A stretch of 64,000 nucleotides of DNA. Source: Burkholderia lata (GTDB lineage: Bacteria; Pseudomonadota; Gammaproteobacteria; Burkholderiales; Burkholderiaceae). The DNA is taken from positions 2,542,001 through 2,606,000 of the forward strand of contig NC_007510.1 in NCBI RefSeq assembly GCF_000012945.1. The letters are read 5' to 3'. The position numbers and the translations under genes are program-made. Every line of letters begins with the position of its first letter. Position 1 is the stretch's first letter. A model generated the notes under the pieces. The model saw only the letters and a program-made list of their open reading frames with translations. It did no database searches and was not told the DNA's origin. Below are positions 34,593 through 60,956 of this stretch, piece by piece.

Positions 34593-34949
34593 AGGCACCT
34601 CGATGACGAAAGCGGAAAGAGACACGTATTGTCGCGGCTGCGCTGCGTGGTGTCGACGTGCGACGCACACGGCGCGCCGGCGCGCCCATGCCGCCGGCCG
34701 TCACGGCAATCGCACCGCCCTGCTGCCCCGGTGAAACGCCTTAGTCCATTCCGACGATTCTTCGCCGCGTGCGCGGGCCTACGCTCGATGTCGGGTGCGC
34801 CGCACTGCGCGGCACGTGCGGGCGGCGAACGCCCCGCAGGTCCCGATCCGCACCCGTCACGCGCGCCGACCGATATCGGCGCGGCTCCTTCCGACCGCCG
34901 CGACGCTTCCCGCCACCCGGGCACGCGCGGCTTCATCCGATACGCCGCC
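34593..34949. other. Divergent intergenic region between phrB and the SRPBCC gene
   Basis: 357 bp without a convincing gene. It holds a copy of the dyad motif found twice between the sulfotransferase and cysD arms (34741-34757). Part of it would be coding if the photolyase starts at the upstream ATG (34670). Confidence 0.55.
34741..34757. promoter_or_regulatory. Third copy of the sulfonation-locus dyad, TTAGTCCATTCCGACGA
   Basis: It matches the perfect site TTAGTCCACCCGGACGA (40198-40214) at 14 of 17 positions, keeping TTAGTCC and CGACGA-type flanks around a 4-bp centre. It lies 193 bp before the SRPBCC start. This ties the SRPBCC/SnoaL pair to the sulfotransferase and cysD arms as one possible regulon. 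Assignment is inference. Confidence 0.5.
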
Positions 34950-35429
34950 ATGACCAAACCCTCGAATCTCGTCACCTCGATCACCGTCGACATCGACGCA
35001 CCGGCCTCCGTCGTCTGGGAAGTGCTGACCGACTTCCCGCGCTACGGCGAATGGAACACGTTCTGCGTCGGCTTCGAAACGACCGGCAAACTCGGTGATT
35101 TCGTGCACATGCAGGTGCGCATCCCGGGCACGGAGACCGTGATTCCCGTCAACGAGATCCTCGTCGCGTACGAACCCGAACGCCTGCTGTCGTGGGAGCA
35201 GCGCCCGACCGACGACAACAAGGACGCCGCGCGCCGCGACCAGTACATCGATGCGATCGGCGCGGAGCGCTGCCGCTATTTCACGACCGACCAGTTCCTC
35301 GGCCTCAACGCAGACACGATCATGCAGAACCACGGCGGGTGGGTGAAACAGGGCTTCGACCAGTGCGCGCGCGACGTGAAGCAGCGTGCCGAAGCGCTCC
35401 ACGCGGCACGCCGGCGCAACAACGCGTGA
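34950..35429 (+). CDS. SRPBCC (START/polyketide cyclase-like) domain protein
   Basis: 159 residues. The N-terminal strand and helix VTSITVDIDAPASVVWEVLT, then DFPRYGEWNTFC, is the standard SRPBCC opening, with VHMQVRIPGTETVIPVNEI and the long C-terminal helix WVKQGFDQCARDVKQRAEAL. The fold makes a deep hydrophobic pocket for lipids, sterols or polyketides; some members are cyclases or hydratases, others only bind. The ATG at 34950 begins the domain. The SnoaL-like gene follows 13 bp later, so the two form a unit. Confidence 0.88.
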   Translation: MTKPSNLVTSITVDIDAPASVVWEVLTDFPRYGEWNTFCVGFETTGKLGDFVHMQVRIPGTETVIPVNEILVAYEPERLLSWEQRPTDDNKDAARRDQYIDAIGAERCRYFTTDQFLGLNADTIMQNHGGWVKQGFDQCARDVKQRAEALHAARRRNNA

Positions 35430-35442
35430 CCGGGAGCCGCCG

Positions 35443-35895
35443 ATGCCCGATCTGCAAACACTGTCCGACCATCACGACATCCGCGAGCTGATCGTCGCGT
35501 ATTCGACTGCGATCGACACGCGCGACTTCGACGCGCTCGACGCGGTGTTCACACCGGATGCCGCAATCGACTATCGCGCGATGGGCGGCATCGCCGGCCG
35601 CTATCCGGAGGTAAAGGCGTGGCTGCGCACCGTGCTGCCGCAGTTTCCGCAGTACCAGCACATGGTCGGCAACCTGTCGATCCGGCTCGAAGGCGATACC
35701 GCGCGCGGCCGCACGATCTGCTTCAATCCGATGGAGGTCGCGCTGCCGGACGGCAGCACGCAGGTGATGTTTCTCGGGCTGTGGTACGTCGACCGGTTCA
35801 TGCGCACCGCGCAGGGCTGGCGCATCGCCGAGCGCGTCGAAGAGCGCTGCTACGGCCACAACGTGCCGGCCGTGCTCGCGGGCGCGACCGGTTGA
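35443..35895 (+). CDS. SnoaL/NTF2-like domain protein
   Basis: 150 residues forming one NTF2-like cone (helix DIRELIVAYSTAIDTRDFDA, LDAVFTPDAAIDYRAMGG, and the strand region VMFLGLWYVDRFMRTAQGW). Such proteins include ketosteroid isomerase, SnoaL cyclase and many dehydratase-like enzymes; catalytic residues differ and cannot be assigned here. GGGAG precedes the ATG at 35443. It is co-directional with the SRPBCC gene (13-bp gap) and converges on the DHH gene. Confidence 0.85.
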   Translation: MPDLQTLSDHHDIRELIVAYSTAIDTRDFDALDAVFTPDAAIDYRAMGGIAGRYPEVKAWLRTVLPQFPQYQHMVGNLSIRLEGDTARGRTICFNPMEVALPDGSTQVMFLGLWYVDRFMRTAQGWRIAERVEERCYGHNVPAVLAGATG

Positions 35896-35960
35896 TCCAT
35901 GCGCGACGCGCGCGCCGTGCGAAAGCTGCACGGCGCGCGCATCCTGGACCATCGCGTCGA

Positions 35961-36941
35961 TCAATCGAGCCGGAACGCGGCCTCGAATCGCTCGGCGAAC
36001 GCGTCGAACTCGGTTTCCGGCAGATGGTTGATGCCGCCCGCGCGCTTGCGCCCGCCGCCGGTCGGGAAGCCGCGACAGAACTCGTCGGCGCCGAGCGGCC
36101 GGCCATCGGGCACGCGCACGCTGACGACGAGCCCGCCGTCCGCGCGCGGCGACAGCACCGCGAGCGCCGCATGCGGCGCGTTGCGTATCCGCTCGTTCGC
36201 GAGCATGCCCGTCGCGCGCCGTGCCCACGGATGATCAGGCATCCGGACCAGCGTCGCACCGGGCACCTCGCGCAGCGGCGCGAGTGCGCACGCGTGCGCC
36301 ATGTCGTCGCGGTAGCCGTCGCGCAGCGCGGCGAATACGGCCGTCTCGCGCACGAAATCGAGCGGGTCGACGCACGGCAGCATCGCGTCGGCGAGCGCGG
36401 CCGGATCGAAATGCAGATCGCCGACACACTCGCCGTACGCGTTGTAGTTCAGGTAGAGCCCGAGTTCGGCGAGCGTGTCGCGCTCGGCGTCGCCAATCCC
36501 GTGCTCGCGCGCGAGCGCGTGGCCGAGCGCCGGCAACTCGTCGCCGAACGCCGCGACGATCGCCCAGCGCACGTGCCGGCCGCCGAGATAGCGGTTCACG
36601 ATTGCGCTCGTGCAGACGTCGGCTGCCGTGTCGATATGCGCGTCGAAGCGCGGCTCGTCAGGCAGCTCGCCCGCGAAGTGATGGTCGAAATAGCGGACCG
36701 TCGCGCCGTCGCGCAGCAGCCGCGCGCACGCGTCGCGATTCTGGTCGTGCGACACGTCGAGCACGGTGACGATGTCGCCTGCCCGCGCGTCGATCCGCTC
36801 GAGCAGCTTGATGTCGCGCTTCACGCCGGTCACGAGCGTGCCGTGCACGCCCTCCGCCAGCCGCAGTTGCTGAAGTGCGCACAGCCCGTCCGCGTCGCCG
36901 TTGAACGCAAAGAAATGTTGTGTTTCGTGGTTGTCCTGCAT
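35961..36941 (-). CDS. DHH/DHHA1 family phosphoesterase
   Basis: 326 residues. The DHH-superfamily metal motifs are visible: FNGDADGLCAL (13-23), VLDVSHDQNRD (60-70) and FDHHFAGELP (85-94); the C-terminal GGGRKRAGGINHLPE is the DHHA1 substrate clamp. Relatives hydrolyse phosphodiesters or phosphomonoesters, including the NrnA class that removes the 3'-phosphate of pAp. It is the last gene of the operon DUF1214-sulfotransferase-SDR-DHH. Because sulfotransferases release PAP, a PAP phosphatase role is attractive but inferred. I chose the ATG at 36941 (GGAG upstream); another in-frame ATG lies at 36956. Confidence 0.85.
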   Translation of the reverse strand: MQDNHETQHFFAFNGDADGLCALQQLRLAEGVHGTLVTGVKRDIKLLERIDARAGDIVTVLDVSHDQNRDACARLLRDGATVRYFDHHFAGELPDEPRFDAHIDTAADVCTSAIVNRYLGGRHVRWAIVAAFGDELPALGHALAREHGIGDAERDTLAELGLYLNYNAYGECVGDLHFDPAALADAMLPCVDPLDFVRETAVFAALRDGYRDDMAHACALAPLREVPGATLVRMPDHPWARRATGMLANERIRNAPHAALAVLSPRADGGLVVSVRVPDGRPLGADEFCRGFPTGGGRKRAGGINHLPETEFDAFAERFEAAFRLD

Positions 36942-36958
36942 GTTCCCTTGCTCCATCG

Positions 36959-37750
36959 TCAGGGCATGAAATCGCCGCCATTCGCGTCGAGCGTCGCGCC
37001 CGTCACCGCGTTCGCGTAGTCCGACGCGAGGAACAGTGCGGCACGCGCGCAGTCATCGTCGGTCGGCAGCTTCGCGAGCGCGATGTTCGACGCGATCGGC
37101 GCGATGATCTGCTCTTCCGTCATCCCGTACTCGGCGGCCGCCTGCCGGAAATACGTCTGGGTCGGCACGCCCCACATCCACCCCATGTGGATGCTGTTCG
37201 CGCGAATGCCGTGCACGCCGAGTTCTCGCGCCAGGTATTTTGCCGCAACCGCGAGCGCGCCCTTCGATACAGCGTAACCGCCTTCCCCTGCAAACGGCTT
37301 GCGGGTCGCCTGCGTGTTGATCATCACGATCGCGCCGCGCTTCTGTCGCTTCATGTGCGGCACGACTTCCTGCGTGAGCGCCATCGTACCGAACACGTTG
37401 GTGTCGAACACCGCGCGCCAGCCATCGAGATCGGCCTCCTCCACCGGTTCCGGGAACGTGCCGTGCACGAATGCGCTGTTCACGAGCGCGTCGATCCGGC
37501 CGAAGCGCTCGACGGCCTGCGTCGCGAGCTGCCGGCATTGTGCGCGGTCGGTGATGTCGGTCTTCACCTTCAGCACATCGCAATCGACGCCGAGTGCTTG
37601 GATTCGCGCTTCGGCGTCGTCGAGCTTTTCCATCGTGCGCGCGGCGACGACCACGCCGCGCGCGCCCTCGCGTGCAGCTTCGACAGCGAGCTTCACGCCG
37701 AGCCCCGGCCCGATCCCTGAAATCACGACGATCTTGTCCTTCAGCAACAT
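36959..37750 (-). CDS. Short-chain dehydrogenase/reductase (SDR) family oxidoreductase
   Basis: 263 residues, a classical SDR. The cofactor motif is SGIGPGLG (11-18), the NAG equivalent is NSAF (91-94), and the active-site pair is YAVSK (Tyr159, Lys163). The position of the usual catalytic serine, 13 residues before the tyrosine, is Thr146 (MINTQATRKPF). The C-terminus GATLDANGGDFMP is typical. It is encoded 42 bp after the sulfotransferase gene and 17 bp before the DHH gene, so it probably oxidises or reduces the molecule handled by the sulfotransferase. Confidence 0.92.
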   Translation of the reverse strand: MLLKDKIVVISGIGPGLGVKLAVEAAREGARGVVVAARTMEKLDDAEARIQALGVDCDVLKVKTDITDRAQCRQLATQAVERFGRIDALVNSAFVHGTFPEPVEEADLDGWRAVFDTNVFGTMALTQEVVPHMKRQKRGAIVMINTQATRKPFAGEGGYAVSKGALAVAAKYLARELGVHGIRANSIHMGWMWGVPTQTYFRQAAAEYGMTEEQIIAPIASNIALAKLPTDDDCARAALFLASDYANAVTGATLDANGGDFMP

Positions 37751-37792
37751 GGGTTGTCTCCTGGTTGTCGTTGATCTAGCGAGCAATGGCCG

Positions 37793-38986
37793 TCAGCCTG
37801 CCGCCCGCAGGTGCCGCGCGCGATACGCGGCGAAGTCGCGCGCGAGCTGCGCATCGGTGAAGCCGAAGCGCGCGATCGAATAGTCGTGTGCGGCGCGCTT
37901 GTCACGGCCGTTGCGCGCCATCCAGTCCGTCATCGCCGTGCGCTGCCGCGCATCGAGCGGCATCCCCGCAAACGCGTACACGGCCTCGGCCACGCCAAGC
38001 GGATTCGACACCGTATCCTCGAAGCGCACGTCGAGGAACCGGTCGGCCGGCAGCGCGTCGCGCGCGGCCATCGCCGCACCGATCGCGCGCGCCATCCCCG
38101 CGTTCCACTGCGCGCCGACGGCAAGCGGATCAGGATCGTCCGCATACATCTGCCACAACGTGTGCGCCATGCTCGCCATCGACGGAATCGTCTGCGCCGG
38201 ATCGCGGTGCGTGAGCACGACCTGCGCGCGCGGAAACACCCGGCACAGCACGTCGAGCGCGTGCAGGTGCTGCGGCGTCTTCAGCAGCCAGCGCGCGGCC
38301 GGCGCGACGCCGCGTTGCGCCTTCTGCCACTGCAGGAACTGCAGCATCCGCTTCAGGTACGTATAGACCGGCGTGAGATCCTGCCGCGCGAGCCACGCCG
38401 TATAGCGAGGCACGTTCGCGTACGAATCCATCGCGCACACGAACGAATGCTCCATCAGCATGAACTCCTCGTCGGCGAGCATCGCATCGAGCGGGTGGAT
38501 CGTCAGGATCTGCGGGATGCAGTCGATCATCGTCGCGACCTCGGCCTGCGCACGCGCGATGCGCACCGCCGGTTCGGCAAGCGTCTCGCCCGCGAGCGGC
38601 GCCGGGTAGCGGGTTTCCCACCACGCGGCCGTATGGAAGCGCGGGTCGACGGCCAGCAGGCGCTGCAGCAGCGTCGTCCCCGTGCGCGGCAGGCCGACGA
38701 TCACGAGCGGATCGTCGATCTCGACGTCCGCGATCTCCGGATGACGCCGGAAGTAATCCTCGATAACGAGCCGGTTCACGAGTTGGCCGACGAGCTTCTC
38801 GCGCATCATCTCCGCGCCGCGCGCGGACAGCTTCGCGTCGTCGATCAGCGACGCGCACATCACGTCGAGCGCCTCGCGATACGGCCCGTCACCGAACGCG
38901 GTCAGTCCGCCCGTGCGCGACACGGCTTCGGCGATCAACCCGTCGGCCGCGAGCAGCGTGCGGACCCGGTCAAGCGGCGCGTTCAT
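37793..38986 (-). CDS. PAPS-dependent sulfotransferase family protein
   Basis: 397 residues. The 5'-phosphosulfate loop is LVIVGLPRTGTTLLQRLL (GLPRTGTT at 98-105), the 3'-phosphate-binding segment is VVLTHRDPAQTIPSMASM (Arg261, Ser269), and LLKTPQHLHALD precedes it. The layout matches the Sulfotransfer_3-like bacterial family, larger than the cytosolic sterol sulfotransferases. It should move sulfonate from PAPS to an alcohol of a small molecule, releasing PAP. Its ATG overlaps the stop of the DUF1214 gene (ATGA). Genes for PAPS synthesis (cysD, cysN-cysC) diverge from the same operon. Acceptor unknown. Confidence 0.9.
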   Translation of the reverse strand: MNAPLDRVRTLLAADGLIAEAVSRTGGLTAFGDGPYREALDVMCASLIDDAKLSARGAEMMREKLVGQLVNRLVIEDYFRRHPEIADVEIDDPLVIVGLPRTGTTLLQRLLAVDPRFHTAAWWETRYPAPLAGETLAEPAVRIARAQAEVATMIDCIPQILTIHPLDAMLADEEFMLMEHSFVCAMDSYANVPRYTAWLARQDLTPVYTYLKRMLQFLQWQKAQRGVAPAARWLLKTPQHLHALDVLCRVFPRAQVVLTHRDPAQTIPSMASMAHTLWQMYADDPDPLAVGAQWNAGMARAIGAAMAARDALPADRFLDVRFEDTVSNPLGVAEAVYAFAGMPLDARQRTAMTDWMARNGRDKRAAHDYSIARFGFTDAQLARDFAAYRARHLRAAG

Positions 38987-40092
38987 GCGGCCTCCTTCAG
39001 CGTCGCGAGCTTCACCACCCGCGTGCGCGGATGCACCGGCTGCGCGGCGCCCACCCAGCGCCAGCAGATCGTGCCGGTGCGATGGCCGGCCGTATCGAGC
39101 CAGTTCGCGTCACCCGGCCGCGCGGCCGCGACGACCACCGTCACGCCGCCGTCCGCGTTCAGCCGTGCGCTGTGCTTGTTCACGCAGATATCGAAGTGCC
39201 GGTAATCGAGCGACTCCATCCAGTAGTTGTTGAGCTGCACGTTCCAGAAGTCGCAATCGGGCACCGTGTCGACGTCGATCACGAGCGCTTCATCGTCGGC
39301 CAGCGCCCAGCATGAGTGGTAGTAATAAATGTTCGGATCGCCGCCGACCGACTGGCACAGCGCCTGGTCGGCAGGCGGCAGCGCGTTCACGTGCGACCGG
39401 TAGCTCGCGGCCCAGTCCGCGAACAGCTTCGACGTCTGCTCGACGAACTGCGCGGCGCGCGTGAGGCCGCCCTGCAGCACGAGCGGGTCGAGCGGCGCCG
39501 GGCGATCGTCGGCGCCGATGCGCTCGATCTTCAGCTGCGCCGGCGTTTCCGCACGACGGTCGAGGAAGGTCTGGCGCACCAGCAACGCGTTGGTGCCCGG
39601 CTCCATGCGCACCCAGTTGCCCGCACGCGGCGTTTCGCTCAGCACGATCTCGAAGCTGCCGTCCGGCGCGATCTCGAGCTGCTTCGCATCGAGAAAGCCC
39701 GTCTGCAGCATCTTGCCGTCGGTCTCGTAGCCGCCCTTCTGCGTGCCGAAGCTCAGGTAGGCCACCGTGCCGCGCCGCCCCGTCACGCGGTATTCGCAGC
39801 GGCCGTCGAGACGCGCGTACTGGTACAGGTTGTCGGGATTGTCGGCGCCGATCTTCGCGGTCTCGTGCGACGGCGAGAAAAAGCCCGGCCATGCGCCGTC
39901 CGCGAACTCGACGTGCATTTCGAGCGCGATGCGCATCAGCCGGCTCAGGTAGCGGAATCCTTCCGCGCGCGTCAGCGGATCGTCCGGCGCCTCGGCGCGC
40001 AGGATCTGTTGTCCGCTGCGTTTCAGGGTGTCGCAGAAATCGGCCCAGGTCTGGCCCGAAAGCAATTGCGTGGCACGTGTGTCGTCCGTCAT
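38983..40092 (-). CDS. DUF1214 domain protein
   Basis: 369 residues. The C-terminal region, DCDFWNVQLNNYWMESLDYR...SARLNADGGVTVVVAAARPG, NWLDTAGHRTGTICWRW, is the DUF1214 pattern, following a partly conserved N-terminal helical part (RAEGFRYLSRLMRIALEMHV). No signal peptide is seen. DUF1214 proteins have no settled biochemical role but often neighbour lipid, steroid or cytochrome P450-type metabolism. It is the first gene of the minus-strand arm, controlled from the region with the 19-bp inverted repeat, and is translationally coupled to the sulfotransferase gene. Confidence 0.85.
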   Translation of the reverse strand: MTDDTRATQLLSGQTWADFCDTLKRSGQQILRAEAPDDPLTRAEGFRYLSRLMRIALEMHVEFADGAWPGFFSPSHETAKIGADNPDNLYQYARLDGRCEYRVTGRRGTVAYLSFGTQKGGYETDGKMLQTGFLDAKQLEIAPDGSFEIVLSETPRAGNWVRMEPGTNALLVRQTFLDRRAETPAQLKIERIGADDRPAPLDPLVLQGGLTRAAQFVEQTSKLFADWAASYRSHVNALPPADQALCQSVGGDPNIYYYHSCWALADDEALVIDVDTVPDCDFWNVQLNNYWMESLDYRHFDICVNKHSARLNADGGVTVVVAAARPGDANWLDTAGHRTGTICWRWVGAAQPVHPRTRVVKLATLKEAA

Positions 40093-40147
40093 GTGTTCTC
40101 TCCGCCGATGGTCGAGCGCTCACCTTAAGCGCCGCCGCCGCGCGCCA

Positions 40148-40216
40148 CTTCGTCCGGGTGGACTAAGGAAAGATCCGCTCCACCGCCATGCCGCGATTTA
40201 GTCCACCCGGACGAAG
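40148..40216. promoter_or_regulatory. Perfect 19-bp inverted repeat between the sulfotransferase arm and cysD
   Basis: CTTCGTCCGGGTGGACTAA (40148-40166) and TTAGTCCACCCGGACGAAG (40198-40216) are exact reverse complements, 31 bp apart. Each arm is itself a dyad (GTCC-N4-GGAC), centred 49 bp apart, close to five helical turns. The left arm is 56 bp before the DUF1214 start; the right arm is 91 bp before cysD. This looks like two inverted operator sites for one dimeric or tetrameric regulator governing both arms. Confidence 0.8.
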
Positions 40217-40306
40217 ATCGGCATGCCGCTCGCTCGATACCGTCGGTGTCATGCACGAAACGCCGCACATGTCGCGCGGCACCGGCATGAAACAAGGAGA
40301 CGAACG

Positions 40307-41203
40307 ATGTTGACCCACTTGGAGCGGCTGGAGGCCGAAAGCATCCACATCATGCGCGAGGTGGTCGCCGAGAGCGAAAACCCGGTGATGCTGTATTCGA
40401 TCGGCAAGGACAGCTCGGTCATGCTGCATCTCGCGATGAAGGCGTTCTACCCGGCGAAGCCGCCCTTTCCGCTGCTGCACGTCGATACGACCTGGAAATT
40501 CCGCGAGATGATCGCGTTTCGCGACGAGACGGCCGCGCGCCTCGGCCTCGACCTGCGCGTGCACATCAACCCCGACGGCGTCGCGAACGGCATCGATCCG
40601 TTCACGCACGGCTCGGCCGTGCACACCGACGTGTGGAAGACGCAAGGGCTCAAGCAGGCGCTCGATCACTACGGCTTCGACGCCGCGTTCGGCGGCGCCC
40701 GCCGCGACGAGGAAAAATCGCGCGCGAAGGAGCGCATCGTGTCGCTGCGCTCGGAACAGCACCGCTGGGACCCGAAGCGCCAGCGCCCCGAGCTCTGGTC
40801 GCTGTACAACGCGCGCAAGCGCAAGGGCGAAAGCCTGCGCGTGTTCCCGATCTCGAACTGGACCGAGCTCGACATCTGGCAGTACATCCAGCTTCACGAC
40901 ATCCCGATCGTCCCGCTCTACTTCGCGAAGGAACGGCCCGTGGTCGAACGCGACGGCGCGCTGATCATGGTCGACGACGAGCGCCTGCCGCTGCGCGAAG
41001 GCGAAGTGCCGCAGATGCGCAAGGTGCGCTTTCGCACGCTCGGCTGCTATCCGCTGACGGGTGCGATCGACAGCGACGCGACGTCGCTCGACGACATCCT
41101 GCAGGAGATGCGCGAGACGCGCACGTCCGAACGGCAAGGACGACTGATCGACAGCGATTCGGCCGGTTCGATGGAAAAGAAGAAACAGGAGGGATATTTC
41201 TGA
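40307..41203 (+). CDS. cysD: Sulfate adenylyltransferase subunit 2 (ATP sulfurylase small subunit)
   Basis: 298 residues. The PP-loop [12 protein letters not shown] (31-42) binds [38 protein letters not shown], and [11 protein letters not shown] near residue 150 are characteristic of CysD. With the GTPase CysN it makes APS from sulfate and ATP. It begins the plus-strand arm; AAGGAG precedes the ATG at 40307. Its stop overlaps the start of the CysN-CysC gene (TGATG). The pairing with a CysN-CysC fusion and a divergent sulfotransferase suggests sulfate activation for sulfonation rather than cysteine synthesis. Confidence 0.97.
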
Positions 41204-43125
41204 TGGCACACGTTCTCACCGCGCCCGAGGCGCTCGCGCACCATGCACCCGATTCACACGCTGCCGACGAAGCGGACACGCCAACCCAGGACCTGTTGCG
41301 CTTCATCACGTGCGGCAGTGTCGACGACGGCAAGAGCACGCTGATCGGCCGCCTGCTCTACGAATCGAACATGCTGTTCGACGACCAGCTCACGCAGCTC
41401 GAGGCCGATTCGAAGAAGGTCGGCACGCAGGGCGGCGAACTCGATTTCGCACTGCTCGTCGACGGCCTGTCGGCCGAACGCGAGCAAGGGATCACGATCG
41501 ACGTCGCGTACCGTTTCTTCGCCACCGCGCGGCGCAAGTTCATCGTCGCCGATACGCCCGGCCACGAGCAGTACACGCGCAACATGATCACCGGCGCGTC
41601 GACTGCCGATCTCGCCGTGATCCTGATCGACGCGCGCAAGGGCGTGCTCACGCAGACGCGCCGCCACAGCCATCTCGTCGCGCTGATCGGCATCAAGCGC
41701 GTGGTGCTCGCGATCAACAAGATGGACCTGGTCGACTACGACCAGGCCGTGTTCGATCGCATCGACGCCGACTATCGCGCGTTCGCGGCCGAGCTCGGGC
41801 TGGCGGAGATCGTCAGCATCCCGATGTCAGCGCTGCGCGGCGACAACGTGATCGTGCCGAGCGCGCGGATGCCGTGGTACGCGGGCCTGACGCTGATGCA
41901 GCATCTCGACACCTTGCCGCTCGCCGCACGCGTGACTAGCGACGAGCCGTTCCGGCTGCCGGTGCAGTGGGTCAACCGCCCGCACCTGAATTTCCGCGGC
42001 TACGCGGGCAGCATCGCATCGGGCGAGATCCGCGTCGGCGAGCGCGTGCGCGTGCTGCCGTCCGGCAAGGAGAGCCGCGTCGCGTCGGTGATCACGCAAG
42101 GCGGCGAAAGCGACATCGCGCGCGCCGGCGACGCGGTGACGCTCACGCTCGCCGACGAGATCGATATCAGCCGCGGCGACATGATCGCGCGCGCGGATGC
42201 GCCGCCCGAGGTGGCCGACCAGTTCGAGGCGACGCTCGTGTGGATGCACGACGCGCCGCTGCTGCCCGGGCGCCCGTATCTCGTGAAGCTCGGCACGCAG
42301 ACGGTCGGCGCGACCTGCGCGACGCCGAAGTACAAGATCGACGTGAACACGCGCGAGCATCTCGCGGCGCGCACGCTCGCGCTCAACGAGATCGGCGTGT
42401 GCAACCTGAGCTTCGACCGGCCCGTTGCGTTCGATCCGTACGACCGCAATCGCCACACCGGCGGCTTCATCGTGATCGACCGCGTCACCAACGACACGGT
42501 CGGTGCCGGGATGCTGCACTTCGCGCTGCGCCGCGCGCACAACGTGCACTGGCAGGCCGTCGACGTCGATCGCGCCGCGCGTGCCGCACTGAAGGCGCAG
42601 ACGCCGCGCATCGTGTGGCTGACGGGGCTGTCGGGCGCCGGCAAGTCGACGATTGCGAATCTCGTCGAGAAGCGGCTGCACGCGCTCGGCAAGCACACGT
42701 ACCTGCTCGACGGCGACAACGTGCGGCACGGGCTCAATCGCGATCTCGGCTTCACCGAGGCCGATCGTGTGGAGAACATCCGGCGTGTCGCCGAAGTCGC
42801 GCGGCTGATGCTCGACGCGGGGCTCATCACGCTCGTGTCGTTCATCTCGCCGTTCCGCGCGGAGCGCGACATGGCGCGCGCGCTGGTCGGGGCCGACGAG
42901 TTCGTCGAAGTGTTCGTCGACACGCCGCTCGCGGTTGCCGAGGAACGCGATCCGAAGGGCCTGTACAAGAAGGCGCGACGCGGCGAGCTGAAGCACTTCA
43001 CGGGCATCGATTCGCCGTACGAACCGCCCGCGCAGGCCGAACTGCGTGTCGACACGGTCGCCGAGTCGCCGGAAGAAGCGGCCGATCGCATCGTCGCGTA
43101 CCTGCTGCGCGAGCGCGCGGCGTAA
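41203..43125 (+). CDS. cysNC: Bifunctional sulfate adenylyltransferase subunit 1 / APS kinase (CysN-CysC fusion)
   Basis: 640 residues. The N-terminal GTPase (about 30-460) has P-loop [10 protein letters not shown] (37-46), [11 protein letters not shown] (G3) and NKMDLVDYD (G4). After the elongation-factor-like barrels, the C-terminal APS kinase (about 465-640) has GLSGAGKST (475-483) and the standard [15 protein letters not shown] (503-517). The fusion makes APS and converts it at once to PAPS, as in NodQ and mycobacterial CysNC. PAPS is the donor needed by the sulfotransferase on the divergent arm. The ATG overlaps the cysD stop by one base. Confidence 0.97.
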
Positions 43126-43172
43126 GTGCCGCGAGTGGGCCGCCCGGCGGCGGCCCGCTCGCCCGCGTCGCC

Positions 43173-43188
43173 TACTCCGTTCGGATGA
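43173..43188. promoter_or_regulatory. Weak dyad copy upstream of the LuxR-type regulator
   Basis: TACTCCGTTCGGATGA matches TAGTCC-N4-GGACGA at 11 of 16 positions overall and at 10 of the 12 non-spacer positions. It lies 67 bp before the regulator's ATG and could be an autoregulatory site of the same family. On its own it would not be noticed. Confidence 0.3.
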
Positions 43189-43254
43189 CGCGGGCCGCCA
43201 GCCGGCCGGTATGCTGGTCCGGGAATCCTTCATCCCGACCAGGAGAACACAAGC

Positions 43255-44442
43255 ATGCCCATCGCGCTGGCGCCCGGCGACCCGGCCGCGCACGACGGTT
43301 TCGACGACGCCGCATGGACGGCGCGCGAACTCAGCGCGTGGCTCGGGCTCGTCTATCAGGGCCCGTCGGAACCGACCCCGTGGGGCGGCTTCCTCGAAGC
43401 GGTCCGCGCGCGGCTCGACGCGAGCTTCACGACCCTGGTGCTGCGCAATCCGGGCAGCGCACGGCACGGGCTCATCATCAATGCATCGGCGCAGGGCCCG
43501 CTGCTGCCCGGCGAACCGTCGTACAGCGAGCAGTTCTACGCGCTGTGCCCGTTTCTCGACCAGCCCCCCGGCCAGGTCTTCACGGCCGACCGGCTGTTCG
43601 GCGAAACCGCGTGGTGCGCGCACGATTTCTACCGGCAGTACCTGCAGCCGCTCGACCTGCGCTACATCCTCGGCGCGAACCTGCGCGGCGAACGCGGCGT
43701 CGAATGCGCGTTCTTCGTGAGCCGCGCGCACGGCGGCCGCGATTTCGATGCGGCCGAGCGCGCGCAGGTCGCGACGCTGCTGCCGCACCTGCAGCGGGCG
43801 GTCGAACTGCACGCGGCCTTCGACGTGCTCGATGCCGAACGCGCGCTGTACGCGGGCACCGTCGACCGGCTCGACGTCGGCACAGCGATCGTCGACGAGG
43901 ACGGCCGCGTGATCAAGCGCAACCGCATCGCCGAGCGGCTGATCGAGCAGCAGGACGGGCTGTGCGTGCGCCAGGAGCGGCTCCACGCGTCGTGTCCGCT
44001 CGATGAGCGCCGGCTGCAGAAGGCGCTGCAGGCCGCGCTCGAGCATTTCCGCGCGGGCGCGCTCGCCCGCATCGAAGCCACCACGCTGTCGCGCCCCGGC
44101 GGCGCGATGCCGTTGAGTGTGCTGCTGCGCCCGCTCGCGCCCTACCGCGGTGCGGAGGACCGCCAGCACCGGCCGGCCGTCGCGGTGTTCGTCCGCGATC
44201 CGGCGTCGTCGCCGCAGACGTCGCGCGACATGCTGCACCGGTTGTTCCGGCTCACGCCGATGGAAACCGAAATCGCGCTGCTGCTCGTCGACGGGCTGAC
44301 GCTCGACGAGGCGGCCGCCGCGACCGGCATCACGAAGAACACCGCGCGCGCGCACCTGCGCGGCATCTTCGCGAAAACGGGCGCGACGCGGCAGGCCGTG
44401 CTCGTGAAGACGCTGCTCAACAGCGTCGTGTCGATGGCATAG
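43255..44442 (+). CDS. LuxR-family HTH transcriptional regulator
   Basis: 395 residues. The C-terminal LuxR/GerE-type HTH (about 325-390) reads FRLTPMETEIALLLVDGL, then TLDEAAAATGITKNTARAHL and RGIFAKTGATRQAVL. The N-terminal 300 residues have no two-component receiver; they contain a possible sensor fold (PAS-like: AIVDEDGRVIKRNRIAERLI). CAGGAGAA precedes the ATG. It lies 129 bp downstream of cysNC in the same direction and is the likely regulator of the sulfonation genes through the paired dyads; the link is by position only. Confidence 0.88.
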   Translation: MPIALAPGDPAAHDGFDDAAWTARELSAWLGLVYQGPSEPTPWGGFLEAVRARLDASFTTLVLRNPGSARHGLIINASAQGPLLPGEPSYSEQFYALCPFLDQPPGQVFTADRLFGETAWCAHDFYRQYLQPLDLRYILGANLRGERGVECAFFVSRAHGGRDFDAAERAQVATLLPHLQRAVELHAAFDVLDAERALYAGTVDRLDVGTAIVDEDGRVIKRNRIAERLIEQQDGLCVRQERLHASCPLDERRLQKALQAALEHFRAGALARIEATTLSRPGGAMPLSVLLRPLAPYRGAEDRQHRPAVAVFVRDPASSPQTSRDMLHRLFRLTPMETEIALLLVDGLTLDEAAAATGITKNTARAHLRGIFAKTGATRQAVLVKTLLNSVVSMA

Positions 44443-51253: not shown

Positions 51254-51910
51254 TCAGACCGCGCCGCCATAAGCGCGCACGAAATCGCCCAGGCCGCGGT
51301 TGTAGCCGGCGCCGACTGCCTTGAACATGAAGTGGCCGTCGCGGCGATAGAAGCTGCCGACCTGCACCGACGTCTCCATCGAGAAGTCTTCCTCGAGCGC
51401 GTACTTCGCGATCACCGCGCCCGACACCTCGTCGGCGATCTGGATGTAGCTGTTGCGCACCTGGCCGAAATTCTGGCGACGCGCTTCGGCCTGGTCGATC
51501 GTCACGACCACCGAGATTTCCTCGATGTCCGCGGCAAGCTTCGTCATGTCGATGAAGATCACCTCGTCGTCGCCGTCGCCGCTGCCCGTGCGGTTGTCGC
51601 CGCTATGCACGACACCCAGGCACTTCGACGCGGGCATCCCGCGCTTCGGGAAATCGTCGCCCGGCTGGATGAAGGTGTCCTTGCGCTCCATCGTGCGCAC
51701 TTCGCTGTTGTAGAACACGAAGTGCTGATCCGAGATCAGCTTCGGATTGCTCTGCGGGTCGTACTTGCACAGGAACACCGACACGTCGAGATCGAAATCC
51801 GTACCCGTGTCGGTCGAGTTCGCATCCCAACCGAGACCGATGCGGAACTTCTGCGTGCCGGGCGCTTCCTTCGACAGGTTGACGCGACCGCCTTTCGACA
51901 AATTGATCAT
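51254..51910 (-). CDS. terD: TerD family tellurium resistance / stress protein
   Basis: 218 residues. The TerD core contains FRIGLGWDANSTDTGTDFDL, DVSVFLC, then GDDEVIFIDMTKL and the C-terminal SMETSVQVGSFYRRDGHFMF. The clustered aspartates form the known calcium-binding sites. TerD proteins are cytoplasmic or membrane-associated and part of a general stress complex linked to tellurite and phage resistance. It is in the operon with telA, the VWA protein and the DUF475 membrane protein. Confidence 0.94.
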   Translation of the reverse strand: MINLSKGGRVNLSKEAPGTQKFRIGLGWDANSTDTGTDFDLDVSVFLCKYDPQSNPKLISDQHFVFYNSEVRTMERKDTFIQPGDDFPKRGMPASKCLGVVHSGDNRTGSGDGDDEVIFIDMTKLAADIEEISVVVTIDQAEARRQNFGQVRNSYIQIADEVSGAVIAKYALEEDFSMETSVQVGSFYRRDGHFMFKAVGAGYNRGLGDFVRAYGGAV

Positions 51911-52010
51911 CTGAACCTCTTCTGCTGGAACCGCCGTGGTGCCGGCGGCAATGCCGGGCCGCCCTGCGCGGCCCCTCGTTGATGGTGTTCGCCCCGCGCG
52001 TGACGCGCGA

Positions 52011-53027
52011 TTACTCGCCCGCCACGGCCGTCCGGTCTTCCTTGCGTTGCACGATGATCGACGACCATACGGCCGCCGCGATCATCGCTGCGCCGACCAG
52101 GCCCGTGATGACCTCGGGCACCTCGAACTTCACGCCGAGGAACATGATCGTTGCGAGCGCACCGATTGCCCAGAACGCGCCGTGTTCGAGATAACGGTAT
52201 TGCGCGAGCGTGCCCTTCTTCAGCAGCACCAGCGTCATCTCCCGGATATAGGCCGCGCCGACGCCAAGGCCGAGCGCGATCAGGAAGATGTTGTTCGACA
52301 GCGCGAATGCACCGATCACGCCGTCGAAGCTGAACGACGAATCGAGCACTTCGAGATACATGAAACCCGCGACGCCTTCGCGCACCACGCGCGTACCCGT
52401 CTCCTCGCCGCCGATCAGGTCGCCGATGCCGTGCGCGATCACGAAGCTGATCACGCCGAATGCACCCGCGAGCAGGAAGGCCACCTGCTCGGCTGCCGGC
52501 ACGTAGAGCGACGCAATGATGATGATCGCGAGCGTCAGCGCCACTTCCAGCGCCGTGATGCGGCCGAGGTGGCTCATCGGGCCTTCCAGGAAGCCGATCC
52601 AGTGCTCGTCCTTCTCGGTGTCGAGCATGAACTTGAAGAACACCATCAGCAGGAATGCGCCGCCGAATGCGGATACCTGGTGATGCGCGGACGTGAGGAT
52701 CGACGCGTACTGCTCCGGCGACTCGATCGCGAGCTTCAGCGCGTCCCACATGCCGATGTGGCCGATCACCGCGACGATCAGCAGCGGGAACACGAGCCGC
52801 ATGCCGAACACGGCGACCGGCAGGCCGAACACCATGAAGCGGTTGCGCCACTTCTCCGACCAGTTCTTGAGCACCGATGCGTTGACGACCGCGTTGTCGA
52901 GCGACAGCGAGATTTCGAGCACCGACAGGACCGCGACGATCAGCATGTCCTTCACGCCGCCGAGGAAATAGGCCGCGACGAGCGCGAGCACCGTGAGCGA
53001 CAACGGGATCTTGAAGTCTTTCAACAT
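52011..53027 (-). CDS. TerC-like DUF475 integral membrane protein
   Basis: 338 residues with about 8 hydrophobic helices. The opening LTVLALVAAYFLGGVKDMLI and the conserved EISLSLDNAVVNASVLKNWS, with paired acidic residues in the membrane, are the TerC/DUF475 hallmarks; a second charged pair appears in VLDSSFSFDGVIGAFALSNN. It is thought to bind or move metal ions and to anchor the Ter complex. The ATG at 53027 begins the first helix. Gaps to terD (100 bp) and the VWA gene (44 bp) fit one operon. Confidence 0.92.
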   Translation of the reverse strand: MLKDFKIPLSLTVLALVAAYFLGGVKDMLIVAVLSVLEISLSLDNAVVNASVLKNWSEKWRNRFMVFGLPVAVFGMRLVFPLLIVAVIGHIGMWDALKLAIESPEQYASILTSAHHQVSAFGGAFLLMVFFKFMLDTEKDEHWIGFLEGPMSHLGRITALEVALTLAIIIIASLYVPAAEQVAFLLAGAFGVISFVIAHGIGDLIGGEETGTRVVREGVAGFMYLEVLDSSFSFDGVIGAFALSNNIFLIALGLGVGAAYIREMTLVLLKKGTLAQYRYLEHGAFWAIGALATIMFLGVKFEVPEVITGLVGAAMIAAAVWSSIIVQRKEDRTAVAGE

Positions 53028-53071
53028 GATGGGGGTATTCGAGTTCTGGATAAAAGGCGTACGGGCTGCGC

Positions 53072-53818
53072 TTACTTCGCGCGCACCCATTCGCAGAATT
53101 CCTGCGTGATCAGCTGTTCGTAGATCTGTTCGTCGCTGAGGTCGAGCGATTCGAGATGCAGGAAGCCGACGTTCGGCATCTCGTCCGCGACTTCCGCGAG
53201 GAAGCCGAATTCGCTCGGATCGCCGACGCCGACGAGCGACCAGTACAGCGGGTAGTGCTGCGACTCGGCCAGCAACTGGCGCACGCGCTTGCGGTCGTTC
53301 TTCGGGTTCTGGCCGTCGGTGACGAACAGCACCCATGCGGGCAGATGGCCGTTCACCGGCGCGGAAGCGGCCGGCGCGGGCGTCTCGTCCGCCCCGCCGA
53401 ACAGCCGGCTCAGGAAGCCGCGCTTCTCTTCGCGCTTCGGCGACGGCTCCGGCGCGCGGAAGAAGAAGTCGACGATGTCGTTCATTACCGGCGCGTACTG
53501 CGTGCCGCCCCACTTGTCGATCCGCGCCTCGAGCACGTGGTCGGAAATGTACGAGCCGTAGTTGTCCGGCGTGGCGGTCGGCAGGCGGTCGTAGCCTTCG
53601 GTGAAGGTCCACGTGTCGACTTCGCCGTTGTCGTCGAACTTCAGTGCAATGCCGAGGATCCGGTCATGCGTCTCCTGGATCACGCCCGACTGGTACAGCG
53701 GCTTCGCGGAGCCGGAGATGTCGAGCGCCGCGCCCACGCGCACGACGGGCGGCTTCAGGATCTGGCGTTTTTCGAGGACGATCGCGACCTTCGCCGCGCG
53801 TTTCTCAAGCGTAATCAT
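53072..53818 (-). CDS. VWA-domain protein of the tellurium resistance cluster (TerF/TerY-like)
   Basis: 248 residues. A von Willebrand A fold is shown by the MIDAS motif VGAALDISGSAKP (Asp-x-Ser-x-Ser, about 27-39), FDDNGEVDTWTF, and WVLFVTDGQNPKNDRKRV. An insertion rich in Pro/Arg (APEPSPKREEKRGFLSRLFG) interrupts the domain. VWA proteins of ter loci bind metal ions and partner proteins such as TerD. It is between telA and the DUF475 gene on the minus strand. Confidence 0.9.
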   Translation of the reverse strand: MITLEKRAAKVAIVLEKRQILKPPVVRVGAALDISGSAKPLYQSGVIQETHDRILGIALKFDDNGEVDTWTFTEGYDRLPTATPDNYGSYISDHVLEARIDKWGGTQYAPVMNDIVDFFFRAPEPSPKREEKRGFLSRLFGGADETPAPAASAPVNGHLPAWVLFVTDGQNPKNDRKRVRQLLAESQHYPLYWSLVGVGDPSEFGFLAEVADEMPNVGFLHLESLDLSDEQIYEQLITQEFCEWVRAK

Positions 53819-53838
53819 GCGGTGTTCTCTCAGTTCTC

Positions 53839-54930
53839 TCAGTTGTGCTTCGGAGCGAATCGGGTGATCAGGTCCTGTTCGAGCTGGCGCAGGCGCGGCG
53901 CGTCCTGCTCGCGCTGGCGCTTGCCGTCGGCGATGATCTGCGTGACGTCGTCGAATGCGCCGAACAGCTGCTGCTGCGCGTATTCGAACGTATCGGTCGA
54001 GATCACCGGGCGCTGGCCGAGCTTCGCGACTTCCTGCGCGTTCTGGCGGTTCAGGTCGGCCTGCGCGCGGATCGCCTCGTCGGCTGCGTCGTACGTCGCG
54101 TTCGCGAGTGCCGCCGCGCGTTTCGTGCTGAGCTGCTCGAGGTAGAGCGCGAACGCGTTGGTCCACGCGGGGATCAGCACGGTCTTGATCGTCATGAACT
54201 TCGACGTCAGCGTGCGTTTCTGGTCCTGCTCCATCCGGATTTGCGGCGCGAGCTGCTTCGACATCAGCATCGCGCGATCGAGGTCGTCGAGCTTGCTTTC
54301 GAGCGCGTCGACCTTGCGCTTCACGTCGAGCAGGCGCTGTGCGGCGAACGCATCGTCCGCCGGCTGCTGGCCGGCCGCGAGATGCGCGCGCAGCGTCGCG
54401 AGCGCCGTTTCGCCGTGCGCCTTCGACTGCGCGAGCTCCTGGTGCAGCGCGTAGTTGTCGTTGTACATCCGCTCGAGCTCGTCGATGCCGGCCTTCTGGC
54501 GCTGCGCATGGTTCTCGAGTTCGACGACGAGCGTGTCCATCCGCTTGCTCACCGACTCGTATTGCGACAGCAGCTTCTCCTTGGTCGAGCGGAACAGCCG
54601 CGTGACCTGCGTGAGCAACCCGCCCTTGTCGGCGCCGCGCGGGTCGAGCCCCTTCGCGGTCGAGATCAGTTCGTTGAGCTTGTCGCCGAACTGGTCGGCA
54701 TCCGACGCACGGACGCTTGCGAGAATCTGCTGGGAGAAGGCCGCGATCCGCGTGCCCTGCGTCGCGCCGAGCTGGTCGATCTCGTCGACGGTGATCAGGC
54801 GGACATTCTCCGCCGGGCGTGCTGCCGGCACGGCAACGGCGGCGGCAGGCATGACGACGGGTGACGAAGACGGGGTGGAAGGACGATCGCTGACCGCATC
54901 GGAGTTCTTGTCATCGAATAGCGGCTTCAT
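53839..54930 (-). CDS. telA: Toxic anion resistance protein TelA/KlaA family
   Basis: 363 residues. The long helical TelA core includes EKLLSQYESVSKRMDTLVVE, LENHAQRQKAGIDELERMYN and MEQDQKRTLTSKFMTIKTVL, IPAWTNAF, a very conserved TelA segment. The first 50 residues are low-complexity. TelA proteins accompany Ter systems and confer tolerance to tellurite and other stresses through an unknown mechanism. It is the first gene of the minus-strand operon, with the VWA gene 20 bp behind. The ATG at 54930 is preferred over the longer basic N-terminal extension starting at 54975. Confidence 0.93.
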   Translation of the reverse strand: MKPLFDDKNSDAVSDRPSTPSSSPVVMPAAAVAVPAARPAENVRLITVDEIDQLGATQGTRIAAFSQQILASVRASDADQFGDKLNELISTAKGLDPRGADKGGLLTQVTRLFRSTKEKLLSQYESVSKRMDTLVVELENHAQRQKAGIDELERMYNDNYALHQELAQSKAHGETALATLRAHLAAGQQPADDAFAAQRLLDVKRKVDALESKLDDLDRAMLMSKQLAPQIRMEQDQKRTLTSKFMTIKTVLIPAWTNAFALYLEQLSTKRAAALANATYDAADEAIRAQADLNRQNAQEVAKLGQRPVISTDTFEYAQQQLFGAFDDVTQIIADGKRQREQDAPRLRQLEQDLITRFAPKHN

Positions 54931-55365
54931 GTGGCTACCACGTTTCCTTTTCTGCTTTCTGCTGCGTGTTGTCATGCGCGCGAGGCGCGCATCCGCGATT
55001 GCCGCCGTGCTCTCTCACGGGCGGCAGACGGACAATAAAGGGCGACGACGCGGTGCGTCAAGGGATGCGAATCTTTCATTTTCCATACGCTTTGTAATGT
55101 ATGAGATGGAAATCTCGATACGGCTCCGGGTGACGTGAGGACACATGCCTTGATGGAGCGTGAATCCGGATTTCTCGGGAAACGTGGGCAGCGAATAATA
55201 GAAAGTGTTTTGAAAGAATTAGTCTTTTGTTATTCCGCTGATTGTTACAGATTGCTTAATACGGTGAGCGCCATTGTCGCGACGCATCACGCGGCGGTGA
55301 ATGTGTCAAAGCCCGTCATGCAGGCTTGCGATGTTCTCTCTCCCGCAATCGTCCTGTGGCGGGTT
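54931..55365. other. 435-bp intergenic region between telA and the T6SS effector cassette
   Basis: No convincing gene. It includes AT-richer DNA around 55180-55260 and presumably carries the promoter of the telA operon on its left side. The frame at 55135-55692 on the plus strand overlaps the effector-cassette gene and is not credible. I see no terminator with a clear stem here. Confidence 0.55.
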
Positions 55366-56703
55366 CTACTCCGAATAGCCCTGCGACGTCGGACCTGCAT
55401 CATGACGACGGCCCCACCACGGCAAGTACGCGTTGTTTCCACCGCGCGCGCGGAACCAGTTCTTGCTGGTGTCGATCGGTGTCAGCTTCGACGGTGCGAC
55501 CACCACCACTGCCGTCGGATGCTCGGTGTCGGTCGTTCCCGCCACGAGCACGTTTCCGCCGAGGTGCTTCGCTCGGCCGATCGCCAACGCGACATCGGTC
55601 AACGCCGCGCCGGCACCCATGTCACCGAGCAATGCCGACGTATTGAAGGTCTGTGCGTGGAGGTCGTATTCCGGCAGCACTTCGGTCAGTGATTGCGATA
55701 GCGCGGCGGCCCTTGCCGACGCAGCATCGCTGCCCTTGCCTGCGTCGTGAATGACGTAGTTCAGTGACGAGACCGTGACGCCGGCATTGCTCGCCGCTGC
55801 GTCGATCGTCGATGCCCATGCCCGCACCACGCGGCTCGCGCCTTGCTTCGCCTCGAAATCGTCGACGTTGCTTCGTGCAGCCTTGCCGATCCACGCCAGC
55901 GGTTCGCGCTCGGTCTTCAAATTCGGGCCGGCGAGGAACAGCAGCACCATGTTCTCGTTGATCTGTTCGTCCTGCGGCGGAAAGCTTGGCGCGTCCCAGT
56001 TCATCACCCAGACGCTTTTGTCGGGGTGTACGGCCAGATAGTCCAGTGCAGCGTTCAGCGACGTGAAACCGGCGTTTCCTTGACCTGACGTCACGTGCAC
56101 ATCGGGCGGCGTATCGCGGCTCCATAGATTTTTTGCAGACGGGTTGCCGATTTCGAAGATGGTGACAGCGCGATCCTGCAAATAAGCCGCTGCCAGTTCA
56201 GGGTTCAACCGATCGCTGGGAACAGCCAACTCGACATGAATGCCGGCCAGCTCTCGCCAGTTCCACCGCCAGCGCGGGCTGACGGTATAGAAGTAGTCGC
56301 CGTTCAAAAAATAGCGTGTGCGAAACAGCACCAGGAGTTTGTCGACATACTTTTCATAGAACCCGGAAAACGACTCACTGCCCCGATTACCATCTGCAAC
56401 GATGGATATCGGTTGCAAGGTCGTGTATTTCGCGGGTTTGGTCCGCACCATATCGTCGTTGCTGTTCGGCTTGACCAATCCGAGCGTCCACAGCAATTGC
56501 CACTCGGTCGGATAATCTCGACGCTGCAGCGGATTAAGCCATTCCAGCCCCACAACCTGCGCAACGAAGGGCGCGTCAGACGCACCTACGGCAGTTTGCG
56601 CCGATATAGCGCTCGCCTCCGCCCGCACCGGCAAGGCCGACAGGATTACCGCCGCCGCACTCACAACGAATCCGACGTGCCTGACAAGAGTGAAGCGGTA
56701 CAT
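55366..56703 (-). CDS. DUF2875-like T6SS effector-associated protein, copy 1 (exported)
   Basis: 445 residues. The N-terminus MYRFTLVRHVGFVVSAAAVI, LSALPVRAEASA, is a probable signal peptide, so the protein should reach the periplasm. The rest shares about 90% identity over its C-terminal 260 residues with copy 2 at 57104, including a 44-residue identical block (NPSAKNLWSRD...HPDKS). The Tle3-type lipase gene and VgrG lie upstream in the cassette. DUF2875-type proteins accompany Tle3 in Pseudomonas, where cassette partners serve as adaptor and immunity proteins; which role this copy has cannot be told. CAGGAA precedes the ATG. Confidence 0.75.
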   Translation of the reverse strand: MYRFTLVRHVGFVVSAAAVILSALPVRAEASAISAQTAVGASDAPFVAQVVGLEWLNPLQRRDYPTEWQLLWTLGLVKPNSNDDMVRTKPAKYTTLQPISIVADGNRGSESFSGFYEKYVDKLLVLFRTRYFLNGDYFYTVSPRWRWNWRELAGIHVELAVPSDRLNPELAAAYLQDRAVTIFEIGNPSAKNLWSRDTPPDVHVTSGQGNAGFTSLNAALDYLAVHPDKSVWVMNWDAPSFPPQDEQINENMVLLFLAGPNLKTEREPLAWIGKAARSNVDDFEAKQGASRVVRAWASTIDAAASNAGVTVSSLNYVIHDAGKGSDAASARAAALSQSLTEVLPEYDLHAQTFNTSALLGDMGAGAALTDVALAIGRAKHLGGNVLVAGTTDTEHPTAVVVVAPSKLTPIDTSKNWFRARGGNNAYLPWWGRRHDAGPTSQGYSE

Positions 56704-56830
56704 GAGTATTCCTGACCTAGTCGGTCGATAACCCGTTGAACGCCGACCAGCCCGCATCGGAGCCCGGTCGAAACCGGAACCCCAACTCCATTCCCAATGA
56801 TGAGTTCGTCGCGGTAGCCGGCCCAACGAC

Positions 56831-57094: not shown

Positions 57095-57103
57095 GCGGGC
57101 TCC

Positions 57104-60933: not shown

Positions 60934-60956
60934 GTTGTTTTTCTTGAAGACTCAGC

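Follow-up and report, generated by a model that had tools for sequence, protein, structure and literature searches.

Background

Sulfotransferases that stand beside dedicated genes for making 3'-phosphoadenosine 5'-phosphosulfate (PAPS) are familiar from rhizobial nodPQ-nodH and from Xanthomonas raxPQ-raxST, whose substrates are Nod factors and a peptide, respectively. A similar pairing is found in Burkholderia lata, within the window analysed here, a stretch of 64,000 nucleotides at positions 2542001-2606000 of contig 2 (NC_007510.1) of an 8.68 Mb genome with three contigs. In this locus, a sulfotransferase gene lies opposite cysD and a cysN-cysC fusion (cysNC). The gene neighbours differ from those of the nod and rax systems, and these were compared by description.

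Three further systems resemble parts of the locus. In Bacteroides thetaiotaomicron, BT_0411-BT_0416 also place a sulfotransferase beside putative PAPS-making genes, with a steroid as the substrate, and their transcription rises with cholesterol (PMC9417993). However, that cluster belongs to another phylum, the available part of its description names no DUF1214, short-chain dehydrogenase (SDR), SRPBCC, SnoaL or DHH protein and shows no tie to ring degradation, and the likeness to BT_0416 is one of description, not of sequence (PMC9417993). In Methanothermococcus thermolithotrophicus, the DHH-DHHA1 protein MtPAPP is encoded beside ATP sulfurylase and adenosine 5'-phosphosulfate (APS) kinase genes (PMC10322725; structure 8a8k), and it shares its fold, conserved metal-binding aspartates and DHH motif with the DHH protein of the locus. 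PAPS is reduced for growth there, on the other hand, the identity to our DHH protein is about 14%, and the part of the paper at hand reports no canonical sulfotransferase in that genome (PMC10322725). Lastly, the gene at the place of TesR/TeiR, the LuxR-type regulator of steroid catabolism in Comamonas testosteroni, encodes a full-length relative of the LuxR protein of the window, but it sits with ring-degradation genes whereas the window protein sits with sulfonation genes (PMC6678751, as far as available).

We consider it very probable that the locus is a dedicated sulfonation regulon, and likely that its substrate is a steroid or a steroid-derived alcohol. Taken as a whole, the account that we favour with fair confidence is a self-contained module of steroid-degrading proteobacteria that combines a PAPS cycle with sulfonation of a steroid-derived alcohol and is controlled by a TesR-like regulator. 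PAPS would be formed by CysD and CysNC at the expense of sulfate and ATP, the Sulfotransfer_3 enzyme would transfer the sulfo group to a hydroxyl of a steroid or steroid breakdown product, and the DHH protein (CysQ in a second architecture) would strip the 3'-phosphate from the by-product 3'-phosphoadenosine 5'-phosphate (PAP). The DUF1214, SDR, SRPBCC and SnoaL proteins may prepare, carry or further modify the steroid. The LuxR protein, acting on an 18-bp dyad, would control the two arms and the SRPBCC unit, as well as a distant SnoaL gene in some Burkholderia.

Gene content and PAPS supply

A first-pass annotation of this DNA, made by a model from the letters alone, had named nine genes between 34950 and 44442; gene calling and domain searches recovered every one of them in place. 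The minus-strand arm is read in the order DUF1214, sulfotransferase, SDR, DHH, and the plus-strand arm in the order cysD, cysNC, LuxR, while the SRPBCC and SnoaL genes lie on the plus strand and point at the end of the DHH gene. The features are as follows.

34741..34758, plus strand: weak operator copy (2 mismatches) 5' of the SRPBCC-SnoaL pair, from a pattern match
34950..35429, plus strand: SRPBCC / START-like protein (Polyketide_cyc2), from Pfam; relative in 71 of 80 loci
35443..35895, plus strand: SnoaL_4 (NTF2-fold) protein, distant BaiE relative, from Pfam and from structure and residue comparison
35961..36941, minus strand: DHH-DHHA1 phosphoesterase, proposed PAP phosphatase, from homologues, fold and metal ligands
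36959..37750, minus strand: SDR, PRK07890 subfamily, from NCBIfam; 78 of 80 loci
37793..38986, minus strand: PAPS-dependent sulfotransferase (Sulfotransfer_3) with loop GLPRTGTT and a conserved HR-TIPS-AS stretch, from Pfam
38983..40092, minus strand: DUF1214 protein, 94% identity to solved structure 6ans, from Pfam; 80 of 80 loci
40149..40166, plus strand: operator copy 1, TTCGTCCGGGTGGACTAA, dyad between the arms
40198..40215, plus strand: operator copy 2, TTAGTCCACCCGGACGAA, inverse of copy 1, dyad between the arms
40307..41203, plus strand: cysD, ATP sulfurylase small subunit, second copy in the genome, from NCBIfam
41203..43125, plus strand: cysNC, ATP sulfurylase large subunit fused to APS kinase, from NCBIfam
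43255..44442, plus strand: LuxR-type regulator, TesR/TeiR-like, Pfam match below cut-off, from comparison with relatives

The sulfotransferase matches Sulfotransfer_3 of Pfam with 145.6 bits. The PAPS-type loop GLPRTGTT pointed out in the first-pass annotation occupies residues 98-105 and is unchanged in all 76 related copies that have letters there, out of 78 in total. Comparison with solved structures gave no product clue: besides three weak matches to protein-tyrosine sulfotransferases it returned 2zq5 and 2z6v, each labelled 'putative uncharacterized'. One of the 34 Burkholderia genomes with the sulfotransferase, G024, has the match in two neighbouring pieces (G024:C13:37061-38217), and a single exact operator is left there.

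CysD and the CysN-CysC fusion both score above the curated NCBIfam cut-offs. A second sulfur set was found on the same contig, consisting of cysI, a small DUF934-like gene, cysH, cysD and cysN and adjoining a cysB-like regulator; apart from the PF01507 matches, these names were assigned from sequence. Its CysH carries the CCHIRK and CEPCT motifs, passes the APS-reductase model (290 bits vs a cut-off of 235) and fails the PAPS-reductase equivalog (132 bits vs 254 needed), and it also passes a broad model titled phosphoadenylyl-sulfate reductase. Judged from these models and motifs, the genome assimilates sulfate elsewhere, via a separate CysD-CysN pair and an APS-type reductase, and the cysD and cysNC genes of the locus are not its sole ATP sulfurylase genes. 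This supports the first-pass proposal that the fusion serves sulfonation rather than assimilation. The further proposal of a PAPS supply of its own holds insofar as the linked set is separate from the assimilatory genes, but the supply by CysNC is not exclusive because the genome contains two other APS kinases, encoded on contig 3 and, within the window, at about 13975-14535. The latter is a stand-alone gene 0.6 kb from a tRNA-Val (13270-13344), with no sulfotransferase among the called genes around it, and the number of such stand-alone kinases varies among Burkholderia.

Among the 65 Burkholderia genomes, the 34 with a CysNC fusion at the locus are the same 34 that carry the sulfotransferase, and these fusions are the 34 top APS-kinase matches, one per sulfotransferase genome. 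Outside Burkholderia, 24 named genomes were searched for APS kinases, with the genus taken from record titles. In each of the 13 searched Pseudomonas, the locus copy (226-236 bits) is accompanied by another CysNC-sized gene elsewhere that scores 153-178 bits, whereas six of the 24 genomes (G069, G070, G071, G072, G074 and G085) have no strong APS kinase other than the one at the locus. The CysD-CysNC arm could alternatively serve mainly sulfate assimilation, with its position beside the sulfotransferase being incidental, and Pseudomonas CysNC does also serve assimilation. Such a role was nevertheless set aside given the separate cysD-cysN-cysH-cysI set with its APS-reductase-type CysH in B. 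lata and the second, lower-scoring CysNC-sized genes of Pseudomonas; the operator shared between the arms argues against it as well, and we regard this explanation as highly improbable.

Conservation and two architectures

A scan of named genomes found 196 relatives of the locus, of which the best 80 loci were kept, 21 from Burkholderia and 59 from seven other genera. The presence of each module gene was counted by tblastn with identity thresholds that we set, because the gene caller, trained on Burkholderia codons, misses genes in Comamonas and others (e.g. L070). The sulfotransferase and the DUF1214 protein are present in all 80 loci, CysD, CysNC and the SDR in 78 each, SRPBCC in 71, and DHH and LuxR in 60 each, while the SnoaL protein of the window type is found in 22 and CysQ in 18. 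The block is kept in Burkholderia, Pandoraea, Paraburkholderia, Cupriavidus, Collimonas, Comamonas, Pseudomonas and Halopseudomonas, so that the two arms are conserved together in eight genera. Within the fetched stretch, L065 is without CysD and CysNC and L073 without CysNC; in both genomes an APS kinase lies 1-4 kb past the fetched stretch on the same contig.

Two architectures can be distinguished. The first has divergent arms, the DHH gene and, in all loci but L114, the LuxR gene. The second is co-directional, contains CysQ and BaiE-like SnoaL proteins, and is without LuxR at 45% identity; an EthD-like protein accompanies 15 of the 18 loci of this CysQ type. Two downstream genes were ruled out as parts of the module, since the MFS gene recurs only in 19 Burkholderia loci and L065 (Paraburkholderia), and the lactonase-like gene in 19 Burkholderia loci only.

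Co-occurrence with steroid catabolism

The locus goes together with KshA. Taking a KshA_C match of at least 240 bits as a strong KshA (a threshold that we set), it was found in 33 of the 34 locus-bearing Burkholderia genomes compared with 3 of the 31 others (Fisher p 6e-14). The locus-bearing exception, G057, is 82% complete, and the three locus-free genomes with a strong KshA are G011, G052 and G060. Another 16 locus-free genomes have weak KshA_C matches only (22-84 bits, 15 of them above the Pfam cut-off), and no Burkholderia genome has its best match between 84 and 242 bits. Beyond Burkholderia, 50 of the 59 loci were submitted and 49 genomes searched; all 49 contain KshA_C at 192 bits or more, and a match above the cut-off was found in none of 14 control genomes.

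A clade effect as the sole cause of this tie was ruled out with a pepA tree of the 65 genomes, whose supported branches show at least 12 changes of the locus. Over 12 independent tree pairs, KshA changed the same way in 9.7 pairs on average and the opposite way in 0 (median p 0.002).

The KshA_C match of B. lata itself scores 248 bits. Its gene stands at the end of a long cluster that comprises acyl-CoA dehydrogenases, thiolases, MaoC, an MMPL/RND-type exporter and a block of HsaC-, IpdA-, IpdB-, EchA20- and IpdC-like genes, and is followed by DUF1302, DUF1329 and an HsaD-like gene. We take the names in this block from sequence and from recall, matched to the C. testosteroni block, as no NCBIfam model gives those names. 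With KshA, HsaC-like and C/D-ring-type genes, the genome has the set expected of an aerobic steroid degrader. Near the locus, within the fetched stretch, a relative (at least 40% identity) of KshA, HsaC, HsaD, IpdA, IpdB, EchA20 or IpdC was found in 14 of the 59 loci outside Burkholderia and in none of the 21 within it, and a relative of any of 23 genes from the B. lata steroid region in 24 of the 59. In two Pseudomonas loci (L085 and L097), the cluster adjoins HsaC-IpdA-IpdB-EchA20-like genes.

These data can also be read in another way. The product may be a sulfonated secondary metabolite, lipid or signal, with the steroid tie being ecological, that is, traits of the same versatile soil bacteria gained and lost together. 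In line with this, the locus and KshA are on different contigs in B. lata, the fetched stretch contains no diagnostic steroid gene in 45 of the 59 loci outside Burkholderia or in any of the 21 Burkholderia loci, and the SDR, SRPBCC and SnoaL folds serve many pathways. We nevertheless find it improbable when set against the concordance between locus and strong KshA, which holds in 61 of 65 Burkholderia across the 12 or more supported changes with no opposite pair, the KshA of all 49 genomes from other genera, the TesR-like regulator and the BaiE-type proteins in the clusters. The first-pass annotation had left the substrate as a lipid-, steroid- or polyketide-like alcohol; we narrow it to a steroid because of the KshA co-occurrence, the adjacency of steroid-ring genes in some loci, the TesR-like regulator and the BaiE-type SnoaL proteins, which make the steroid reading the likely one.

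As for the kind of steroid, the steroid pathways of Burkholderia, Ralstonia and Cupriavidus are described as missing the majority of the genes for the cholate side chain, and testosterone, unlike cholate or cholesterol, supported growth of C. necator and P. resinovorans (PMC4810484, in the part available). Both facts point to C19-type steroids in these genera, against which the kinship of some SnoaL proteins (family 11, below) with the bile-acid dehydratase BaiE has to be set. The main text of the same comparative study of steroid degraders, as available, does not mention a sulfotransferase (PMC4810484). In open-licence PMC literature on steroid genes (KshA, IpdA, steroid), a sulfotransferase appears, among the matches listed, only in a gut review, and a search for sulfotransferase with C. 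testosteroni gave, among the steroid texts listed, only a dye-degradation paper and a gut review. The literature searched contains no description of a sulfonation step in these steroid degraders.

Accessory proteins and possible roles of sulfonation

The active site of BaiE is formed by Tyr-Asp-His-Asp. The SnoaL protein of the window is 25% identical to BaiE (4leh), and its family keeps the Tyr, Asp and His but has Asn at the last place in 23 of 23 members, so that the complete set of a BaiE-type dehydratase is absent. A second group, family 11, comprises 30 SnoaL proteins in 20 loci. Two of these loci are L085 and L100, and the other 18 either belong to the CysQ type or are L063, a short contig. 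All 30 match BaiE at 31-38% identity and keep the Tyr, Asp and His; the last Asp is kept in 12 and, unlike in BaiE, missing in 18. BaiE and, by description only, Hsh2 of bile-acid degraders are like the SnoaL protein of the locus in being of the SnoaL_4/NTF2 type (PMC8399759, in part).

For the DUF1214 protein, a fold search returned its own structure 6ans, then three Vibrio entries for two proteins (3vb9/2p3y and 3u07), with the rest being weak. Searches of solved structures with the SDR and SRPBCC proteins gave no product clue, and the open-licence PMC literature held no text combining DUF1214 with sulfotransferase or 6ANS with Burkholderia cenocepacia.

Within the steroid reading, sulfonation might not be a catabolic step but serve to detoxify or solubilise steroids or dead-end intermediates, or to set them aside to be stored or exported. 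Genomes with KshA can do without the locus (the three exceptions above), it has its own regulator and operator apart from the ring-degradation cluster, and Bacteroides sulfonates cholesterol from a comparable, cholesterol-responsive cluster. No transporter is kept with the block across genera, however, the MFS gene being limited as described above, and the SnoaL/BaiE-type enzymes suggest further chemistry, which leaves detoxification or storage quite possible without making it our expectation. A more speculative and rather unlikely role is that sulfonation is an activation step, in which a hydroxyl that is a poor leaving group becomes a sulfate ester, on which the SnoaL/BaiE-type enzymes act by elimination or isomerisation; DUF1214 would be a new enzyme or carrier of this route. 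If so, the cell would invest PAPS in a branch of degradation that the accepted pathway does not contain.

Operator and regulator

Between the two arms there is an inverted pair of 18-bp dyads with consensus TTMGTCC-N4-GGACKAA. Exact sites occur in 34 of 34 locus-bearing Burkholderia genomes vs 2 of the 31 others, while a reversed control pattern gave one match in each of 9 of the 65 genomes; an exact dyad is also present in 14 of 21 genomes of other genera. Within 600 bases before DUF1214, a dyad with at most 2 mismatches is found in 60 of 60 loci that have LuxR and in 2 of 20 that do not (L105 and L114). In the B. lata genome, sites with 2 mismatches are no more frequent than for the reversed control (111 vs 127), and therefore only exact or conserved sites were used. 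Four one-mismatch sites elsewhere in this genome were set aside, all lying inside predicted genes. A sigma-70 scan between the arms detected no promoter-like site.

Of the 20 other Burkholderia loci examined, all but L057 also have the weak site before SRPBCC, with 2 or 3 mismatches in these 19. Sites from exact to 2 mismatches, the limit of the listing for other genera, precede SRPBCC in many of their loci, and SRPBCC keeps its own site even where it is detached from the cluster, in Cupriavidus and Paraburkholderia.

Locus-bearing Burkholderia contain nine exact sites outside the locus. Eight lie upstream of the same SnoaL gene, which is on a different contig (B. lata copy at L004:9383-9835), and the one in G003 does not. 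The two exact sites in locus-free genomes have different spacers and different surrounding genes. The distant SnoaL gene occurs in 14 of 34 locus-bearing and 0 of 31 locus-free Burkholderia, a tie that is not significant on the pepA tree (median p 0.125). All 12 full-length copies carry the site (8 exact, 3 with one mismatch and 1 with two), and an orthologue of 58-60% identity lies inside the cluster in three Pseudomonas. Two fragments, L182 (G006) and L183 (G028), have no operator, as expected of decaying copies. Neither the operator nor this gene was part of the first-pass annotation.

The ring-degradation block of C. testosteroni ATCC 11996 closes with a LuxR gene in the place of tesR/teiR, and the window LuxR is 34% identical to its product over 372 of 395 aa (E ~1e-66), with the compared gene being taken as tesR/teiR by position only. 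By this comparison, the window protein resembles a TesR/TeiR-like regulator, and we infer that it binds the dyad. A search of solved structures with it gave no product clue. Cupriavidus loci contain a second, more distant LuxR paralogue (L071:16268-17452) with 46-47% identity to the window protein, which adjoins luciferase-like and acyl-CoA-dehydrogenase-like genes.

The DHH protein as a candidate PAP phosphatase

A role in the PAPS cycle, which the first-pass annotation did not assign to the DHH protein, is suggested by its distribution. DHH occurs in 60 loci and CysQ in 18, never both, and only L042 and L063, contigs of 8.1 and 9.9 kb, have neither. As the two architectures may reflect one exchange, this alternation is suggestive and not independent evidence. 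The cluster CysQ of L062 passes the CysQ equivalog model, and the B. lata genome has no CysQ above the cut-off (best 98.8 vs 228.8 bits).

The AlphaFold model of the DHH protein has a pLDDT of 94.5, and its first Foldseek match is the Methanothermococcus DHH-type PAP phosphatase 8a8k (TM 0.72, 14% identity). In VIA-align, the model scores 26.5 with 8a8k and 25.9 with RecJ-Cdc45, which is level, so the fold is equally RecJ-like. Residues D16, D18, D62, D86-H87-H88 and D134 are invariant in 34 of 34 aligned sequences, and the manganese ligands of MtPAPP have counterparts in our protein when the residues are paired by eye (MtPAPP His6 with Asn14). From the alternation with CysQ and the fold, the protein is probably a PAP phosphatase; the support for PAP rather than nucleic acid as its substrate is genomic, in that the gene stands where CysQ is missing. 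The database label of this DHH-DHHA1 family is often 'acetyltransferase', which looks like an annotation error carried along.

The gene assignments have two weak points: no Pfam or NCBIfam model matched the DHH protein, although some of its 120 listed homologues are annotated with DHHA1 and its structural model matches DHH-DHHA1 proteins, and the GerE match of the LuxR protein reaches 20.0 bits vs a Pfam cut-off of 23.5.

Implications and neighbouring features

The aerobic pathway by which proteobacteria degrade steroids is regarded as largely mapped, and the locus is nonetheless present in 33 of the 36 Burkholderia with a strong KshA. If the substrate is a steroid, bacteria would have a way of forming steroid sulfates in soil and water. 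The DUF1214 protein of solved structure 6ans would then gain a biological context, and the DHH family often labelled 'acetyltransferase' a function. The operator and the KshA co-occurrence render the idea of steroid sulfonation directly testable.

Inside cysD, ARAGORN called a tRNA-Gly on the minus strand (40577-40673), which is probably false. Farther along the window, 51254-63665 contains TerD/TerC-like genes followed by a pair of small genes that resemble each other, next to a large alpha/beta-hydrolase-like gene and a VgrG-like gene; judged from the translations, it looks like a type VI secretion island.

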